IMG/VR virus record: IMGVR_UViG_3300020373_000074
Span: 1 to 50,138 of that record
Source of the DNA: a virus
Strand: one strand, 5' to 3'
Length of the DNA: 50,138 nucleotides
The notes beneath the pieces are model-generated. The model made no database searches and was not told the DNA's origin. It saw nothing but the letters and a program-made list of their open reading frames with translations. Each line of letters opens with the position of its first letter. The first letter of the stretch is position 1. Below are positions 7,647 through 47,258 of the stretch, piece by piece. The position numbers were made by a program, and so were the translations under genes.

Positions 7647-8669
7647 ATGTTAAAATCATTCTTTTGGACTAGACAAAACGCCTTTTACGCTTGGGTAATG
7701 TTATCATTACTATTAGGTATCGCTTGGTATACTGTAGAGATACTAGTATTTTACAATGCGTGGAACAAAGAAATCTATGATGCGATTCAATCTTTACAAG
7801 AGGAAAGGTTTTGGACATTGTTCTTAGGATTTGACCTCAGTAGGATAACAGAATTTGTAATGCTTAAGGAAGATACTATGCCATCATTCCTTGAGATTAT
7901 AACTTTATATACACCTATAGCAGTATATGCCACTTGGCAGACACAAAGGTATTGTTTCAAATGGAGAGAAGCGAATACGCATCACTACGCAAGAAGGTGG
8001 GAAAAATCACCAGCAAAGATTGAAGGTGGTTCTCAACGTATCCAAGAAGACCTTATGATATTTGGTAAGACACTACAGAGTTTATTTTCAGGGTTCTTCT
8101 CAGCAATCTTAGTATTGTTTGCGTTTCTTCCTATACTTTGGGAATTATCAGAAGGATTACCTGTTTGGAATGGTAAGATAATTCCGGGATTTCTTGTATG
8201 GGTTGCATTAGGTGTTTCAATTGGTGGTACTTTAATATCTCTTATACTGGGTTGGAAACTACCCAAACTTGAATATAATAATCAGGTAGTAGAAGCGAAG
8301 TTTAGAAAACAACTCGTATTTTCTGAGGACGATTTCAAGGCACGAGCAACTGATGTGTTGTTCCCAATGTTTAGTGCAGTTAAGAGAAACTATTATCGAC
8401 TCTTTAATTGGTATATGGGATTTGGAGTATGGCAAACAGCATTCGGTCTGGCAGTAGGTAACTTAGCATTAGTAGTATTAGCGCCTGCATACTTTGACCA
8501 ACTAATTACACTTGGAGTATTATTCCAAGTACTCAACGCCTTTGGGCGAGTAGAATCGTCTATGGGATATTTTATAGACCGTTGGACTACAATCGTAGAC
8601 TTCTTATCGGTTATTCGTCGTATCCGTGAATTTAACAAAGCTTTGGACGAGGCAGAACAGAAGGGATAA
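7647..8669 (+). CDS. SbmA/BacA-like peptide transporter family protein
   Basis: A 340-residue polytopic inner-membrane protein. It carries the SbmA/BacA signature around IEGGSQRIQED (125-135), preceded by HHYARRWEKSPAK, with hydrophobic segments near 14-36, 83-98, 143-167, 180-204 and 263-295. SbmA and BacA import proline-rich peptides and other antimicrobial peptides using the proton gradient, as dimers without an ATPase domain. E. coli SbmA is about 406 residues, so this copy is shorter. It follows the ClpP-like gene by one base and precedes TolQ/TolR-like genes. Phage-directed peptide traffic across the inner membrane is inference. Confidence 0.8.
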   Translation: MLKSFFWTRQNAFYAWVMLSLLLGIAWYTVEILVFYNAWNKEIYDAIQSLQEERFWTLFLGFDLSRITEFVMLKEDTMPSFLEIITLYTPIAVYATWQTQRYCFKWREANTHHYARRWEKSPAKIEGGSQRIQEDLMIFGKTLQSLFSGFFSAILVLFAFLPILWELSEGLPVWNGKIIPGFLVWVALGVSIGGTLISLILGWKLPKLEYNNQVVEAKFRKQLVFSEDDFKARATDVLFPMFSAVKRNYYRLFNWYMGFGVWQTAFGLAVGNLALVVLAPAYFDQLITLGVLFQVLNAFGRVESSMGYFIDRWTTIVDFLSVIRRIREFNKALDEAEQKG

Positions 8670-9799: not shown

Positions 9800-10263
9800 T
9801 GGATATTGAAAATTCAATCGCACTAGTTTCTTTATCAATCTTTCTATTAATGACATTCTCATTGATAGTGATGATTTGGTATGGTCGTTCTAACAAACTG
9901 ATATACTTAGTGATACCTCTGGTTCTTTGGTTAAGTGTATCAACTTATAGTACTATACAAGGATTACTTGGATATCCTGTACTAGCAAAAGATATACCCG
10001 AAGGAAACATATATCTATCTCACACAGTAGGAAAAGACCAAGAATGGTTATACTTCTGGTTAATTGATATAAATACATATGTACCTAAAGCTTATAAGAT
10101 AGTGTACACAGAGGAAGGTGAAAAGTTACTTGCAGAAGCGAAAGAGAAATCAGGTCTTGGTAATCCTCAAGGATTGAAACTTCAACTAGGAAGTAGTGAA
10201 CAAGAAACTGAAAAACAAATAACAATATACAATTTTAATAAACTAGAAGGAATAATCAAATGA
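9799..10263 (+). CDS. Two-helix membrane protein of the envelope cassette
   Basis: A 154-residue protein with two N-terminal hydrophobic segments (about 7-27 and 33-53) and a polar C-terminal domain with strand-like stretches (NIYLSHTVGKDQEWLYFWLIDI). No family recognised. It overlaps the TolR-like gene by one base (TAATG) and the ClpP gene by four (ATGA), so it is clearly part of the cassette. A regulatory or adaptor role in the same envelope complex is possible; nothing in the sequence proves it. Confidence 0.65.
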   Translation: MDIENSIALVSLSIFLLMTFSLIVMIWYGRSNKLIYLVIPLVLWLSVSTYSTIQGLLGYPVLAKDIPEGNIYLSHTVGKDQEWLYFWLIDINTYVPKAYKIVYTEEGEKLLAEAKEKSGLGNPQGLKLQLGSSEQETEKQITIYNFNKLEGIIK

Positions 10264-10910
10264 GTAAAAAACCGTCAAGAATGGATATCATAGGACAGAA
10301 CGGAAATGATGGCGACCACTATGACCAAGTAGATACAGCGCCACCACCGCCGCCACCAGGAATGGATACAGTCATTCCTAAATTGGACTTGATGAAAAAG
10401 AACATCAACTTCTTTATGGGTGATGTTACAATGCAATCAATGGAACCAATATGTGAGTGGATTATTTCTGCAAACCTATCTGATACTCCCCCAAAGGAAT
10501 TGACACTAGTTGTTTGTTCAAGAGGTGGTGACCTCAATGCTTGTTTCGCCCTCGTAGATTGTATGAGGGGTTCTAAGATACCTATCCGAACCATTGGTTT
10601 GGGTATGATTGCATCTTGTGGACTCTTAATGTTTATCTCAGGTACGAAAGGTCGTAGAGTACTTACACCAAATACTGCAATACTATCACATCAATACTCT
10701 TGGGGTTCAGTTGGTAAGGAACACGAACTCTTTGCAAGGGTTAAGGAAATGGAATTAACTACTCATAGACTACTGAGTCATTATAAGAAGTGTACTGGAT
10801 TAAATGAGAAGAAAATCAGAGAACATTTACTACCACCACATGATGTGTGGTTGGGTGCTGACCAAGCATTAAAATTAAAACTATGTGATAAGATATCGGA
10901 TATTACTTGA
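10260..10910 (+). CDS. clpP: ClpP-like serine protease
   Basis: A 216-residue ClpP family peptidase without a membrane anchor. The full triad can be read: S119 in GMIASCG, H144 in LSHQYSWG and D195 just before VWLGADQAL, matching E. coli S97, H122 and D171. The N-terminus (about 1-40) is polar and carries a run of seven prolines, unlike the ClpP propeptide. Other phages use ClpP homologs as prohead proteases, but here the gene closes an envelope cassette. Two ClpP-fold proteins in one operon, one membrane-bound and one soluble, is unusual. It starts in an ATGA overlap. Confidence 0.85.
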   Translation: MSKKPSRMDIIGQNGNDGDHYDQVDTAPPPPPPGMDTVIPKLDLMKKNINFFMGDVTMQSMEPICEWIISANLSDTPPKELTLVVCSRGGDLNACFALVDCMRGSKIPIRTIGLGMIASCGLLMFISGTKGRRVLTPNTAILSHQYSWGSVGKEHELFARVKEMELTTHRLLSHYKKCTGLNEKKIREHLLPPHDVWLGADQALKLKLCDKISDIT

Positions 10911-41602: not shown

Positions 41603-43894
41603 ATGAATATATCAATTACCAAGCGTGATGGCACGAAAGAAAGGTTTTCGTTATCTAAAATACACCGTATATTAGAGTGGGCGTGTACCGATATCACTGG
41701 TGTGTCCGAATCACAAATAGAATTAAAAGCGAATGTACAACTGTATGAGGAAATAAGTACAGGTGATATTCACGACCTGTTAATCAAAAGTTCAGCAGAA
41801 CTTATTACGGAAGATACCCCCAACTATCAATTTGTAGCAGCAAGACTTATTAACTATAAGTTGCGTAAGTATGTGTACGGTCAGTTCGAACCTCTACATA
41901 TTAAAGATATTATCAATAATAATATATGGGAAGGTGTATATGACCACCAGATAGTTAACTGTTATACAGATGATGAACTAGACTACATCAACGATAACAT
42001 CATTAATCACGAGAGAGATGCTACTTTCACATACGCTGGTATGGAACAAATGAGGAGTAAGTATCTTGTACAGAATCGTTCTGATGGTACTGTATATGAA
42101 ACACCCCAAGTATTGTATATAATGATTGCAATGACTCTATTTGCAAGTTATACGAAACAACGTATGTATTATATCAAGAACTTCTATAATGCAATATCAC
42201 AATTCTATATCTCATTACCAACCCCAATTATGGCAGGGGTACGTACACCAACAAGACAATTCTCAAGTTGTGTTGTATTAGAGAGTAATGATTCACTTGA
42301 TTCAATCAATGCAACATCTACATCTATCGTTAAGTACATATCCAAGAAAGCAGGATTAGGTATTAATGCTGGTAAGATACGTGCAGTAGGTTCTCAGATT
42401 GGTGATGGTTCGATACAACATACTGGTCTAATACCATTCCTTAAGTTATTCCAAGCATCAGTTAAATCGTGTTCCCAAGGTGGAGTACGTGGTGGTGCGG
42501 CTACTGTCCATTTCCCTTTATGGCATTATGAATTCGAGGACTTAGTAGTTCTTAAAAACAATAAGGGAACGGAAGAAACCCGTGTAAGGAATATGGACTA
42601 TTGTTTCCAATTCAATAAACTAATGTATGAGAGATTATTAGAGGGCGGAGATATAACATTCTTCTCACCCCATGATGTTCCCGGATTATATGAGGCATTT
42701 AGTACAGACCAAGATGAGTTCAAGCGACTATACGAGAAGTATGAAAAATCGAGAAAGATTAGGAAGAAAACGTTACCAGCATTAGAGGTGTTCTCAAAGT
42801 TCATAACTGAACGAAAAGAAACTGGTAGAGTATATTTACAGAACATAGATAACGCAAACATACACGGTTCATTTATAGAAAAGGAAGCACCAATACACCA
42901 AAGTAATTTATGTCAAGAGATTGATTTACCTAGTCACGGATTAGAATCATATCACGACGAAGAAGGGGAAATATCTTTATGTACTCTATCTGCAATCAAC
43001 TGGGGATTGATAAACGACCCAAGTGAGTTTGAGAAGTATTGTGATTTGGCAGTTCGTGCCTTAGACTCCCTATTAGATTACCAAGAGTATCCAGTAAAAG
43101 CCGCAGAGATTTCTACGAAAAGTCGTAGACCTCTTGGAGTTGGAATCATCAATTTTGCATACTTCCTTGCGAAACGAGGACTTAAATATGACGAGAAGGC
43201 ACTCGCAACTGTTGATGAATATTCAGAAGCGTGGTCTTATTATCTGATTCGTGCAAGTGCTAACTTGGCAAAAGAATACGGTGCGTGTCCTAAGAATGAA
43301 CAAACAAAGTATGGTCACGGAATACTTCCTATTGACACATACAAGAAAGAAGTTGATGAGTTAGTTAAATTCAAATCAAGAATGAAATGGCAATCATTAA
43401 GGAATGATTTAAAGAAATATGGTATTAGGAACTCAACTCTTATGGCGATAATGCCAGCAGAAACTTCTGCACAAATATCGAATTCAACAAATGGAGTAGA
43501 ACCCCCACGGGCTTTAGTATCGTACAAACAATCTAAAGATGGTGTGATGGCACAGGTAGTTCCCGGAATATATCACTTAAAAGGATACTATGATTTGTTA
43601 TGGGAACAAAAATCTCCAGAAGGATATCTCAAATTAATGGCAATACTTCAGAAGTATGTTGACCAAGGTATCTCAGTAAACACAAGTTATAACCCTATAC
43701 ATTACGAAGATAATAAGATACCAATGTCTGTTATGTTGACCGACTTAATTACCTTTTATAAGTATGGTGGAAAACAACTGTACTACTTCAATACAAATGA
43801 TATGGCAGGTGATGATGATACACCTGAATTGGTCAGAGAAGATTTCAATACTAAAGAAGAATATGAGGAGTACTGTGAATCGTGTTCTTTATAA
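41603..43894 (+). CDS. nrdA: NrdA class Ia ribonucleotide reductase, large subunit
   Basis: Catalytic subunit that reduces ribonucleoside diphosphates. It has an ATP-cone at the N-terminus (ITKRDGTKERFSLSKIHRIL), the first active-site cysteine in FSSCVVLES, the NLCQEI radical-site motif with its cysteine, PAETSAQISNSTNGVEPPRA, and a C-terminal redox pair CESC. The 763 residues fit the family. Its partner nrdB is at 44985, but a tmRNA and small membrane genes lie between. Expressed from a leaderless-type promoter. Confidence 0.97.
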   Translation: MNISITKRDGTKERFSLSKIHRILEWACTDITGVSESQIELKANVQLYEEISTGDIHDLLIKSSAELITEDTPNYQFVAARLINYKLRKYVYGQFEPLHIKDIINNNIWEGVYDHQIVNCYTDDELDYINDNIINHERDATFTYAGMEQMRSKYLVQNRSDGTVYETPQVLYIMIAMTLFASYTKQRMYYIKNFYNAISQFYISLPTPIMAGVRTPTRQFSSCVVLESNDSLDSINATSTSIVKYISKKAGLGINAGKIRAVGSQIGDGSIQHTGLIPFLKLFQASVKSCSQGGVRGGAATVHFPLWHYEFEDLVVLKNNKGTEETRVRNMDYCFQFNKLMYERLLEGGDITFFSPHDVPGLYEAFSTDQDEFKRLYEKYEKSRKIRKKTLPALEVFSKFITERKETGRVYLQNIDNANIHGSFIEKEAPIHQSNLCQEIDLPSHGLESYHDEEGEISLCTLSAINWGLINDPSEFEKYCDLAVRALDSLLDYQEYPVKAAEISTKSRRPLGVGIINFAYFLAKRGLKYDEKALATVDEYSEAWSYYLIRASANLAKEYGACPKNEQTKYGHGILPIDTYKKEVDELVKFKSRMKWQSLRNDLKKYGIRNSTLMAIMPAETSAQISNSTNGVEPPRALVSYKQSKDGVMAQVVPGIYHLKGYYDLLWEQKSPEGYLKLMAILQKYVDQGISVNTSYNPIHYEDNKIPMSVMLTDLITFYKYGGKQLYYFNTNDMAGDDDTPELVREDFNTKEEYEEYCESCSL

Positions 43895-43957: not shown

Positions 43958-44134
43958 ATGAGAATACTCACAACTTATAAATTAGTCAGAGGTGTAATGG
44001 TAAGAGAGGTTGCAACAAGAAGATATACTTCCCTAGGTAGTTATCACGACACGACAGAAGTGACGCCTCTCGGTGCAATGTTTCCCTCAGATGTGGAATA
44101 TATGCAAGATAAAAAACTTGACAAAGCAGACTGA
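43958..44134 (+). CDS. Small basic hypothetical protein
   Basis: A 58-residue protein starting MRILTTYKLVRGVMVREVAT with TSLGSYHDTTEVTPLGAMFPSD later. The start has a good SD (GGGAG, seven bases upstream). An in-frame ATG at 43904 would add 18 residues and would lie only six bases after the late box. The YTSLGSYHDTxxVxPLGxMFP pattern looks conserved, but I cannot name a family. Confidence 0.6.
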   Translation: MRILTTYKLVRGVMVREVATRRYTSLGSYHDTTEVTPLGAMFPSDVEYMQDKKLDKAD

Positions 44135-44146
44135 AGCAGGTATAAT
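44118..44146 (+). promoter_or_regulatory. Sigma70-type promoter for the small membrane genes/tmRNA unit
   Basis: TTGACA (44118-44123), 17-nt spacer, TATAAT (44141-44146). A unit from here would cover ORFs at 44176 and 44425 and the tmRNA, ending at the terminator at 44933-44967. GTCAAG after the -10 mirrors CTTGAC at the -35. Confidence 0.8.
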
Positions 44147-44175: not shown

Positions 44176-44292
44176 ATGGAATATGTGGTCTTAACCCTAT
44201 GGGGAATCGGTTTATTATCAAACTTCTTTTTCATCTTCTTTATACCCGCTGATGACAGAATAAAAAAACAAATTGGTCTAAAATTAGACTAA
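44176..44292 (+). CDS. Very small membrane protein
   Basis: A 38-residue ORF about 25 nt after the predicted transcription start. MEYVVLTLWGIGLLSNFFFI and FFIP form one membrane helix followed by a charged tail (DDRIKKQ). No clear SD. Function unknown. Confidence 0.5.
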   Translation: MEYVVLTLWGIGLLSNFFFIFFIPADDRIKKQIGLKLD

Positions 44293-44424: not shown

Positions 44425-44649
44425 ATGTTAGATAAAATCACAAACGGCGTTTCAGCCGCAACGGCTATTGCCATGTCATTAATCGGTTTAGCAATTATGC
44501 TACAAATCGTATTTGGTGGCTCTGTACCTTTCCTTGGCGGAGACGTCATTGGTACAATCATTGGTATAGTTCATCAACTAGGCGACGCTGGCTTGGTTGG
44601 TTTAATTTCCGCTGCTGTACTTTGGAAATTACTAACTCATGATGAATAA
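44425..44649 (+). CDS. Small two-helix membrane protein (holin-like architecture)
   Basis: A 74-residue protein with two hydrophobic helices (about 9-31 and 38-68) separated by a Gly-rich turn (FGGSVPFLGGDVIG), ending KLLTHDE. The size and two-helix form suit a holin, but holins of T4-like phages (gp T) are larger with one helix, so this is only a topology note. ATAGGAG gives a strong SD. It immediately precedes the tmRNA and may share its transcript. Confidence 0.65.
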   Translation: MLDKITNGVSAATAIAMSLIGLAIMLQIVFGGSVPFLGGDVIGTIIGIVHQLGDAGLVGLISAAVLWKLLTHDE

Positions 44650-44771
44650 CTAAGTTTACACACCATGTGAAATGAACGTTTAGTGGAGTTCGTATAAACC
44701 ACTTCTCAACAGCGTTAATGTTGGGAATAGATATACTTAGGACGGCGGTGCAAGTCCGCCCTCCTCCACCA

Positions 44772-44798
44772 AATGTGTATTCTGCGAGTATATATTTG
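44772..44798 (+). other. tmRNA intervening segment
   Basis: Twenty-seven nucleotides between the mature 3' end (CCA at 44769-44771) and the mature 5' end (44799). In permuted tmRNAs this segment is removed by processing; RNase P would cut at the 5' end of GGGGGAG. Confidence 0.75.
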
Positions 44799-44880
44799 GG
44801 GGGAGAGTCAGATATCGACTGGGTATGCCATCTATCTCAATTCGCTAGTCAAGACTAGACTTTAAAATCAAAAATTAATC

Positions 44881-44913
44881 GGCAATCAAAACGATTATTT
44901 ACTGGCTGCATGA
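44881..44913 (+). other. tmRNA tag reading frame
   Basis: Codons GGC AAT CAA AAC GAT TAT then L L A A and TGA give GNQNDYLLAA, to be preceded by the alanine carried by the tmRNA. The resume codon GGC follows TTAATC, similar to E. coli TAGTC before its resume codon. ACTGGCT (44901-44907) pairs with AGTCAGT (44915-44921), holding the stop in the loop. Confidence 0.75.
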
Positions 44914-44932
44914 TAGTCAGTTTGAGGTTTCG

Positions 44933-44967
44933 CCCGAGTTCCTTATCACCAAATACTCGGGTTTTTC
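44933..44967 (+). terminator. Rho-independent terminator after tmRNA
   Basis: CCCGAGT (44933-44939) pairs with ACTCGGG (44955-44961), followed by TTTTTC. It closes the tmRNA transcript before nrdB. Confidence 0.85.
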
Positions 44968-44984
44968 TTTAACCTATATAAAAT

Positions 44985-46058
44985 ATGAAATCAGTATTTA
45001 AAGTCGGCACTAAAAAACACCTAAAGAAAAAGATGTTCTTCGACGAGAGTGTTGATATTGCACGGTATGATACGGTAAAGAATGTACCCCAACAAAAACT
45101 CTACGAGAAGATGTTATCATTTTATTGGACACCCGACGAGATTGATGTTACTAAAGATAAAATAGACTTCGGTAAATTGACTAAGGGTGAACAACACATC
45201 TTTACTGCAAATCTAAAAAGACAAATCTTATTGGATTCTGTACAAGGACGTTCCCCCAATATCGCATTACTTCCTTTATGTTCTACACCAGAACTAGAAG
45301 TCCTTATTGAAACGTGGTCGTTCTTTGAAACGATTCACTCCCGTTCTTACACTCACTTAATTAGAAATGTCTATCCAGACCCGTCAAAGGTTTTTGATGA
45401 AATTGTAACTATTCCGGAAATCTTAGATTGTGGAAAAGACATATCCAGGCATTATGATTTGCTAATGCACTATCGGGGTAAGTTCGGTTCATACGAACAT
45501 AAAAGATTATTGTATCTGTGTATGATTTCGATATACATACTAGAAGGTATTAGGTTTTATGTATCGTTTGCCTGTTCTTGGGGTTTCGCAGAGATAAAGA
45601 AAATGGAAGGTAACGCAAAGATTATTAAATTGATTGCAAGAGATGAGAACACCCACCTTGCGGCTTCGTTAAATATCCTTAAATCTTTCCCTAAAGAAGA
45701 TAAGGATTATGTGAAGATTCGTAAAGAAACACATAATGAAGTTATCGATATGTTTATGAGTGCAATCAAACAAGAAGAAGAATGGGCAGATTATCTGTTC
45801 AAACACGGTAGTATGATTGGATTGAATTCAGGAGTTCTGAAAGAATATGTAAGGTGGATAGGTGCAAAGAGATTTAAGAGTGCTGGATATACAACACCTT
45901 ACCCAACACAACAAGCAAATCCATTACCTTGGACAGAGAAATGGATTGGTGGTGGTAACGTTCAAGTTGCACCACAAGAAACTGAAATCACATCTTATCT
46001 CGTGGGGGGAGTAACACAAGATGTTAAAGAAAACACATTTAAAGGATTAAGCTTATGA
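44985..46058 (+). CDS. nrdB: NrdB class Ia ribonucleotide reductase, small subunit
   Basis: Radical-generating subunit, 357 residues. Its metal and radical residues fall at exactly the E. coli numbers: D84, E115, H118 and radical Y122 in FFETIHSRSYTHLIRN, with a second ligand set in RDENTHL. The C-terminus ends LSL, the R1-binding tail region. No strong SD precedes the ATG. It overlaps glutaredoxin by ATGA and makes a full reduction system with nrdA. Confidence 0.97.
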   Translation: MKSVFKVGTKKHLKKKMFFDESVDIARYDTVKNVPQQKLYEKMLSFYWTPDEIDVTKDKIDFGKLTKGEQHIFTANLKRQILLDSVQGRSPNIALLPLCSTPELEVLIETWSFFETIHSRSYTHLIRNVYPDPSKVFDEIVTIPEILDCGKDISRHYDLLMHYRGKFGSYEHKRLLYLCMISIYILEGIRFYVSFACSWGFAEIKKMEGNAKIIKLIARDENTHLAASLNILKSFPKEDKDYVKIRKETHNEVIDMFMSAIKQEEEWADYLFKHGSMIGLNSGVLKEYVRWIGAKRFKSAGYTTPYPTQQANPLPWTEKWIGGGNVQVAPQETEITSYLVGGVTQDVKENTFKGLSL

Positions 46059-46883: not shown

Positions 46884-47258
46884 ATGGCATATTCAAAAGA
46901 AGTTTTAGAACATTATAATAATCCACGCAACGTGGGTAAATTCGACCCGAAAACAGATTCGGTAGGAACTGGTATGGTCGGTGCGCCTTCCTGTGGTGAT
47001 GTTATGAAACTACAAATTAAAGTTAAAGATGATATAATTGAAGATGTAAAGTTTAAAACATACGGTTGTGGTTCTGCAATCGCTAGTTCTAGTATGGTTA
47101 CTGAAATGATTAAAGGTATGACATTAGACCAAGCACAAGCAGTAAAGAATACGGATATCGTAGAATCATTAAGTCTACCGCCAGTTAAGATACATTGTAG
47201 TGTACTGGCCGAAGATGCAATCAAAGCTGCAATAGAAGATTATCGGTCAAATACTTGA
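46884..47258 (+). CDS. iscU: IscU iron-sulfur cluster scaffold
   Basis: A 124-residue IscU that reads like the bacterial protein through its whole length: PRNVGKF, GAPSCGDVMKLQIKV, KTYGCGSAIASSS, LPPVKIHCS and LAEDAIKAAI. Cluster ligands C37, D39, C62 and C105 and the HscA-binding LPPVK (98-102) are all present, so it should be functional. IscU builds 2Fe-2S and 4Fe-4S clusters from IscS sulfur; no other Isc gene is in the window, so it would use host IscS and HscA. Candidate clients here are the radical SAM enzyme and, for iron supply, NrdB. A recent host origin is likely by family, although codon use appears AT-rich like its neighbours. Confidence 0.95.
   Translation: MAYSKEVLEHYNNPRNVGKFDPKTDSVGTGMVGAPSCGDVMKLQIKVKDDIIEDVKFKTYGCGSAIASSSMVTEMIKGMTLDQAQAVKNTDIVESLSLPPVKIHCSVLAEDAIKAAIEDYRSNT

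Follow-up and report, generated by a model that had tools for sequence, protein, structure and literature searches.

A circularly permuted tmRNA gene between nrdA and nrdB of an uncultured marine T4-like phage, and small protein genes probably housed in the intervening segments of related phage genes

The short region that separates the two ribonucleotide reductase genes of an uncultured marine T4-like phage raises the question of whether it encodes a working tmRNA in two pieces and, if so, what such a gene would do for a phage. The region belongs to the window analysed here, that is, the whole stretch of 50,138 nucleotides of IMG/VR record IMGVR_UViG_3300020373_000074. An initial annotation, read from the letters alone, had proposed a phage-encoded, circularly permuted tmRNA at this place, and had made the proposal depend on a significant match to a tmRNA covariance model. 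Such a match was obtained when the Rfam models were run on the whole window: RF04321 (tmRNA_permuted), built for the permuted form of the molecule (PMC11915505), aligned at 44711-44913 with 82.5 bits and E=2.2e-14, against a gathering score of 47. ARAGORN called a permuted tmRNA at 44679-45004, with the tag GNQNDYLLAA followed by two stops. RF01850 (beta_tmRNA) aligned end to end, over all 331 positions of the model, but its 63 bits fall short of the gathering score of 84 for this subtype, a threshold that was passed by three relatives (L131, L132, and L141). The gene resembles both models in a full-length match that includes both pieces, and it differs in a shorter tag region and in its T-loop, UGCAAGU. 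In addition, the window has a single match to a pattern specific for tmRNA, which combines the CCA end, the 5' strand of the acceptor, and TCGAC; none of 100 shuffles has one. On the basis of the covariance model, ARAGORN, and the covariation and tag conservation described below, positions 44704-44963 were identified as a permuted, two-piece tmRNA gene.

The layout is the permuted one, with the piece that ends in CCA located upstream of the 5' acceptor strand. The 3' tRNA-like piece (44704-44771, plus strand, as are all features of this locus; 5' boundary approximate) was delimited from the RF04321 and RF01850 alignments and from covariation. It includes the T-arm that the initial annotation had placed here (44744-44760), with the stem GGCGG/CCGCC at 44744-44748/44756-44760 and a loop with G at position 55, and the 3' acceptor strand CUCCUCC followed by A73 and CCA (44761-44771, CCA at 44769-44771). 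An intervening segment (IVS) of 27 nt follows (44772-44798), devoid of any ORF, whose ends are complementary over 11 bp and which would be removed on maturation. It forms a hairpin into which the acceptor stem continues, and the fold of this precursor gave a z-score of -4.75 against shuffles. The 5' mRNA-like piece (44799-44963; 3' boundary approximate), recognized by ARAGORN, RF04321, and RF01850, begins with GGGGGAG and carries the D-loop-like sequence AUCGACUGGG, as well as AUAUCGACUGGG at about 44814-44825. All of the seven acceptor pairs of the initial annotation are present in the sequence (44799-44805/44767-44761), including G3-U70, the alanine identity element, as G44801-U44765. The tag frame (44881-44910) is closed by TGA and TAG (44911-44916), and the TGA sits, as had been noticed, in the loop of a hairpin (44901-44908/44914-44921). 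Finally, a stem-loop at 44932-44962, followed by a T-run up to 44968, had been taken for a terminator. It is probably one, but not only that, as it matches a 3' stem-loop of the mRNA piece in the RF01850 alignment and is conserved in relatives, where its hairpin (helix 10) covaries.

Relatives were collected through NrdB and, with better results, through the neighbouring gene for a 74-aa protein, referred to here as mem. They revealed a lineage of uncultured phages in which nrdA is followed by mem, the tmRNA, other genes (e.g., an IscA-like ORF), and nrdB; 47 distinct tmRNAs were found in it, selected by mem and then only by the motif CTCCACC downstream. On 26 aligned relatives, the structure of the window kept 81.6% of its pair cells, compared with 32-47% when the partner was slid, and 54 pair cells were doubly changed versus 15.9 in shuffled controls. 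Three hairpins were 96-100% paired in these relatives, at the resume site, at the tag and stop (95.9%, with covariation), and in the T-arm (100%), and the T-stems of the 47 lineage members covary through many pair types. The pairing between the two pieces that had been proposed was also recovered, as long helices that are 65-82% paired and partly covarying.

All 47 tags end in Y-x-(L/I)-A-A followed by a stop, whose type changes among TAA, TAG, and TGA, and the third codon positions vary. Without translation of the tag this combination would have no easy explanation, and it points to selection on a frame with a hydrophobic -AA end. For four of these tags the anchor-based reading was too long, and the shorter form given by ARAGORN and the alignment was adopted. 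In most of the lineage the tag opens with GGC (Gly), where GCA is usual. The idea of a phage-specific degron survives in a mild form, since the lineage tags end in Y-x-L-A-A (YAIAA in one member), close to the -ALAA endings of bacteria. A genome scan for tags of the ANDNVYALAA type led only to the one-piece tmRNAs of two MAGs (Paludibacterium and Rhodanobacteraceae) and gave no host assignment, and a search for nucleotide relatives among isolates found none, its matches being short and mostly tRNA-like fragments. Two contigs of the lineage start inside the tmRNA gene (L126:1-94 and L133:1-43) and were for that reason missed by automatic tools, with the tags ANENVYSLAA and ANDNVYALAA still readable in them. 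The gene is optional, as L127, L130, L134, L137, L142, and others have no counterpart at this place. A divergent tmRNA in L127 and L130, hinted at by equal spacing, was discarded: even with the threshold relaxed no model matched, and the space is taken up by another ORF-like stretch.

The flanking genes were assigned by tblastn to annotated phage homologues, with nrdA (large subunit) upstream at 41603-43894 and nrdB (small subunit) downstream at 44985-46058. Directly upstream of the tmRNA, mem (44425-44649) encodes a small membrane protein with relatives of 64-97% identity, most of them in the same order nrdA-mem-tmRNA-nrdB, and it matched no Pfam or PHROG family. A second tiny ORF (44176-44292), read from the sequence, encodes a hydrophobic peptide of 38 aa without a Pfam match. 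Upstream of mem and the tmRNA, a sigma70-like promoter sequence, TTGACA-17-TATAAT, with 12/12 matches to the consensus, was located at 44118-44146. Many relatives show TATAAT, the 17-nt spacing, and a near-consensus -35 element, in most cases 190-310 nt ahead of mem. Most shuffles scored as well as many of the relatives taken singly, and the evidence lies in the conserved position. Iron-sulfur assembly genes cluster with the ribonucleotide reductase genes in the window, L203, and L236: a NifU_N protein (PF01592) is encoded downstream of nrdB at 46884-47258 of the window, and IscA-like Fe-S carrier ORFs were read between the tmRNA and nrdB in the other two (L203:2348-2660 and L236:2868-3180). 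The window also contains a radical SAM protein with a SPASM domain (574-1467) and an SbmA/BacA-like transporter (7647-8669; PF05992, E=4e-76), an unexpected cargo gene for a phage contig.

Two-piece tmRNAs of phages are already known. They were published for Methylophilales phage Melnitz (MZ577097) and Pelagibacter phage Mosig, in a study (PMC9004378) of 133 unique phage tmRNA structures, in which 53 were two-piece and 50 of these came from marine or aquatic phages. A single scan of IMG/VR alone returned at least 119 stretches matching a permuted-tmRNA pattern. The window is a further case, from a lineage for which no isolate was found. Like the window gene, that of Melnitz is phage-encoded and permuted, has an intact tag, and belongs to a marine T4-like phage, filed in Kyanoviridae. 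However, the alpha-type model fits the Melnitz RNA (106.7 bits), whereas the best clan model for the window is the beta-type one, and the Melnitz gene lies upstream of the late-transcription coactivator and adjoins a glutamine riboswitch instead of lying between nrdA and nrdB. Its predicted mature 5' end is GGGGGCG and its tag ANDNYVPVDYALAA, compared with GNQNDYLLAA in the window. The one-piece tmRNAs of mycobacteriophages (e.g., Bxz1) and of Bacillus phage G are likewise carried by phages, but they are not described as permuted (PMC4131195).

A further difference between Melnitz and the window concerns the IVS, of 142 nt in the former and 27 nt in the latter. The Melnitz IVS contains an unannotated ORF (L426:46076-46265, a locus annotated only as "SsrA") that starts with MFKWLSKTRLVVITRDYF behind a good Shine-Dalgarno sequence, GGAGAAG. 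It reads MFKWLSKTRLVVITRDYFRERNRKADAKIPKYLSGTRSVYD/GGELGSTGRNRKV followed by a stop (the slash marks the mature 5' end) and is thus stop-free into the mature RNA; its IVS part ends in ...SVYD, and the uncut reading would end in ...SVYDGGELGSTGRNRKV. In the lineage of the window, six distinct tmRNAs with a 133-nt IVS carry an unrelated ORF of 42 codons encoding a zinc ribbon (L235:3639-3795, L236:2551-2710, L237:4315-4471, L241:4317-4473, L262:3629-3785, and L275:4315-4471). This ORF is also free of stops into the mature 5' strand (...YIYD/GGDxASI(K/R), then stop), ending 27 nt inside the tmRNA, and in L203 its homologue is an ordinary gene just upstream of nrdB. Pairwise identities revealed that the IVS and the mature RNA move separately. 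The mature pieces of L237 and L231 are 97.7% identical, with IVSs of 133 and 27 nt, and those of L241 and L247 are 97.0% identical, with IVSs of 133 and 26 nt. In the opposite case, the IVSs of L262 and L275 are 99.2% identical and the mature pieces around them 87.2% identical, and L236 and L237 have an identical IVS on mature pieces that are 94.3% identical. The window carries the short, empty IVS form of this exchangeable cassette.

To cover phage permuted tmRNAs with a long IVS, two pattern scans with exact motifs were carried out, for IVSs of 125-155 and 156-186 nt, which gave at least 150 distinct IVSs. Most of the loci compared in this work lie on contigs from uncultured phages. Among the matches listed, 109 of 150 contained an ATG-initiated ORF of 35 codons or more, compared with 9.4 expected from mononucleotide shuffles, and these 109 ORFs fall into roughly 20 unrelated peptide groups. 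Also among the matches listed, a Shine-Dalgarno-like motif, from a permissive motif list, precedes 89 of the 109; 24 remain open into the mature RNA, 74 end in a TGA one base before it (TGAT/GGGGG), and 11 stop earlier. One large family, with at least 58 distinct IVSs (within L535-L653, e.g., L638, L648, L593, L588, and L540), consists of small membrane peptides of about 38-48 aa, similar to MKNPLVREVSKWMFKAYILWSICADITLLAGIIYLVFF, with the TGA one base before the mature 5' end; its dN/dS has a median of 0.15 and a range of 0.02-0.55. For most of the diverged pairs of the other families dN/dS was 0.03-0.35, with 0.81 for one poorly aligned pair (MNKIDEY), which suggests that the IVS ORFs are mostly under purifying selection. 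One type corresponds to Pfam DUF6356 (E=5e-8), with a homologue that is an ordinary gene in phage C48C1, and another matches PHROG 16066 (E=3e-6).

As an alternative, these ORFs could be chance readings of a structured spacer without any gene function. Two frames are open through the conserved TATGAT flank that precedes the mature 5' end, and some types, such as the zinc-ribbon one, have weak ribosome-binding sites. However, the roughly 9.4 ORFs expected stand against the 109 observed among the matches listed, most of them behind Shine-Dalgarno-like motifs, and the low dN/dS values, the matches to known families, and the two types with homologues as ordinary genes elsewhere render this explanation very improbable. 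The reading that we consider highly likely from these sequence comparisons is that the IVS of phage permuted tmRNA genes serves as an exchangeable slot for small protein genes. This does not extend to permuted tmRNAs in general: no nested ORFs were found in the 45 bacterial permuted tmRNAs examined (IVS of 10-126 nt), and a pattern for IVSs of 120-181 nt, which demands GGGGG acceptors, gave seven matches in 399 Pseudomonadota genomes, none of them at the tmRNA position known for that genome, as compared by eye. No earlier report of ORFs in tmRNA IVSs was found in the open-access literature.

The ORFs that lack a stop of their own, among them the zinc-ribbon, Melnitz MFKWL, and DUF6356 types, allow a more tentative proposal. 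In relatives with such ORFs, folding predicts a single long helix of the IVS ends and the acceptor, with the start and the end of the ORF inside or next to it, so that translation of the ORF should compete with folding or cutting of the precursor. Cutting by RNase P would convert the nested gene into a non-stop message, which would be rescued and tagged by the tmRNA itself. It is thus possible, although doubtful, that slot and tmRNA form a self-limiting circuit in which maturation of the RNA and translation of the nested gene exclude each other. A conceptual parallel is E. coli arfA, whose non-stop mRNA is, in the account cited, kept low by trans-translation (PMC10107115), and which shares with these ORFs a stop-less message open to that process. 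In that account arfA is a separate gene, whereas the ORF of the relatives lies inside the tmRNA gene and its cutting would be tmRNA maturation, a feature absent from the window. Since 85 of the 109 nested ORFs, among the matches listed, have a stop of their own, the circuit cannot account for nesting in general. A simpler explanation treats the IVS as a tolerant space that accepts insertions while the end helix is kept.

Returning to the window, the evidence on structure and tag argues with high confidence for a functional, phage-encoded, circularly permuted tmRNA that would carry out trans-translation with host SmpB during infection. The gene would be transcribed as one RNA by the host RNA polymerase from the host-type promoter, probably early. 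Host RNase P would cut before G44799 and other tRNA nucleases would trim after the CCA at 44771, releasing the IVS, and the two pieces would stay paired, be charged with alanine, and be bound by SmpB from the host. The host protein would be needed because SmpB was found in none of ten records of these and related phages, all of which may be fragments. The RNA would then free ribosomes that stall on broken mRNAs and keep them cycling while message is degraded during infection, and the nascent chains, tagged with GNQNDYLLAA, would be directed to proteolysis by host ClpX with either host or phage ClpP. Tags ending in -LAA are ClpXP degrons in bacteria. A ClpP-like protease is encoded on the same contig as this -LLAA-tagged tmRNA (10260-10910, plus strand; PF00574, E=2.4e-25) and is a possible partner in this degradation. 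The roles initially suggested, namely keeping trans-translation running, retagging proteins, and replacing the host RNA, are all plausible.

An alternative would be a regulatory or decoy RNA that titrates host SmpB or blocks host trans-translation. Inhibitors derived from tmRNA are known in phages, a decoy role having been proposed for the RNA of mycobacteriophage DS6A, which consists only of a tRNA-like domain (PMC4131195, PMC11915505), and the strong promoter-like element would suit such a role. However, a reading frame would be superfluous in a decoy, and in the lineage selection acts on the tag, on its stop, and on the tag hairpin. We regard this explanation as very unlikely.

The T-loop raised a further doubt, as the initial annotation had considered the G in place of the conserved U55 an oddity. 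The base is indeed there, but it is not odd: G55 occurs on different T-stems in 9 of the 47 lineage members. A search restricted by loop forms and acceptor pairing gave it in 41 of 116 distinct phage permuted tmRNAs, and among 45 bacterial ones from Pseudomonadota genomes, where the usual loop is GGCGGUA, at least 42 have it. In these sequences, alphaproteobacterial-type tmRNAs have G55 as a rule, and it also turns up repeatedly in the phage lineage, so it is no sign of decay. Thus, although the loop departs from UUCRANU, the 82.5 bits are lower than those of most bacterial permuted tmRNAs found, and the gene is optional in its lineage, a captured host gene in decay, tmRNA-like but no longer working, is the least probable explanation, given that G55 is normal in bacterial permuted tmRNAs, that the helices covary, and that 47 distinct sequences preserve the end of the tag and a stop despite changes in codons and stop type.

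In conclusion, the functional permuted tmRNA favoured here adds a lineage in which a phage tmRNA occupies a fixed place between the ribonucleotide reductase genes, with 47 distinct sequences that make the evolution of tag and structure readable. The wider result on the IVS of the relatives matters more than the window gene itself. If the IVS is a gene slot, annotation misses phage proteins inside genes considered non-coding, even in the published isolate Melnitz, and phages may have in the slot one reason to retain the permuted form of the gene. The stop-less examples would then represent an RNA gene whose maturation creates its own substrates, a proposal that is directly testable.
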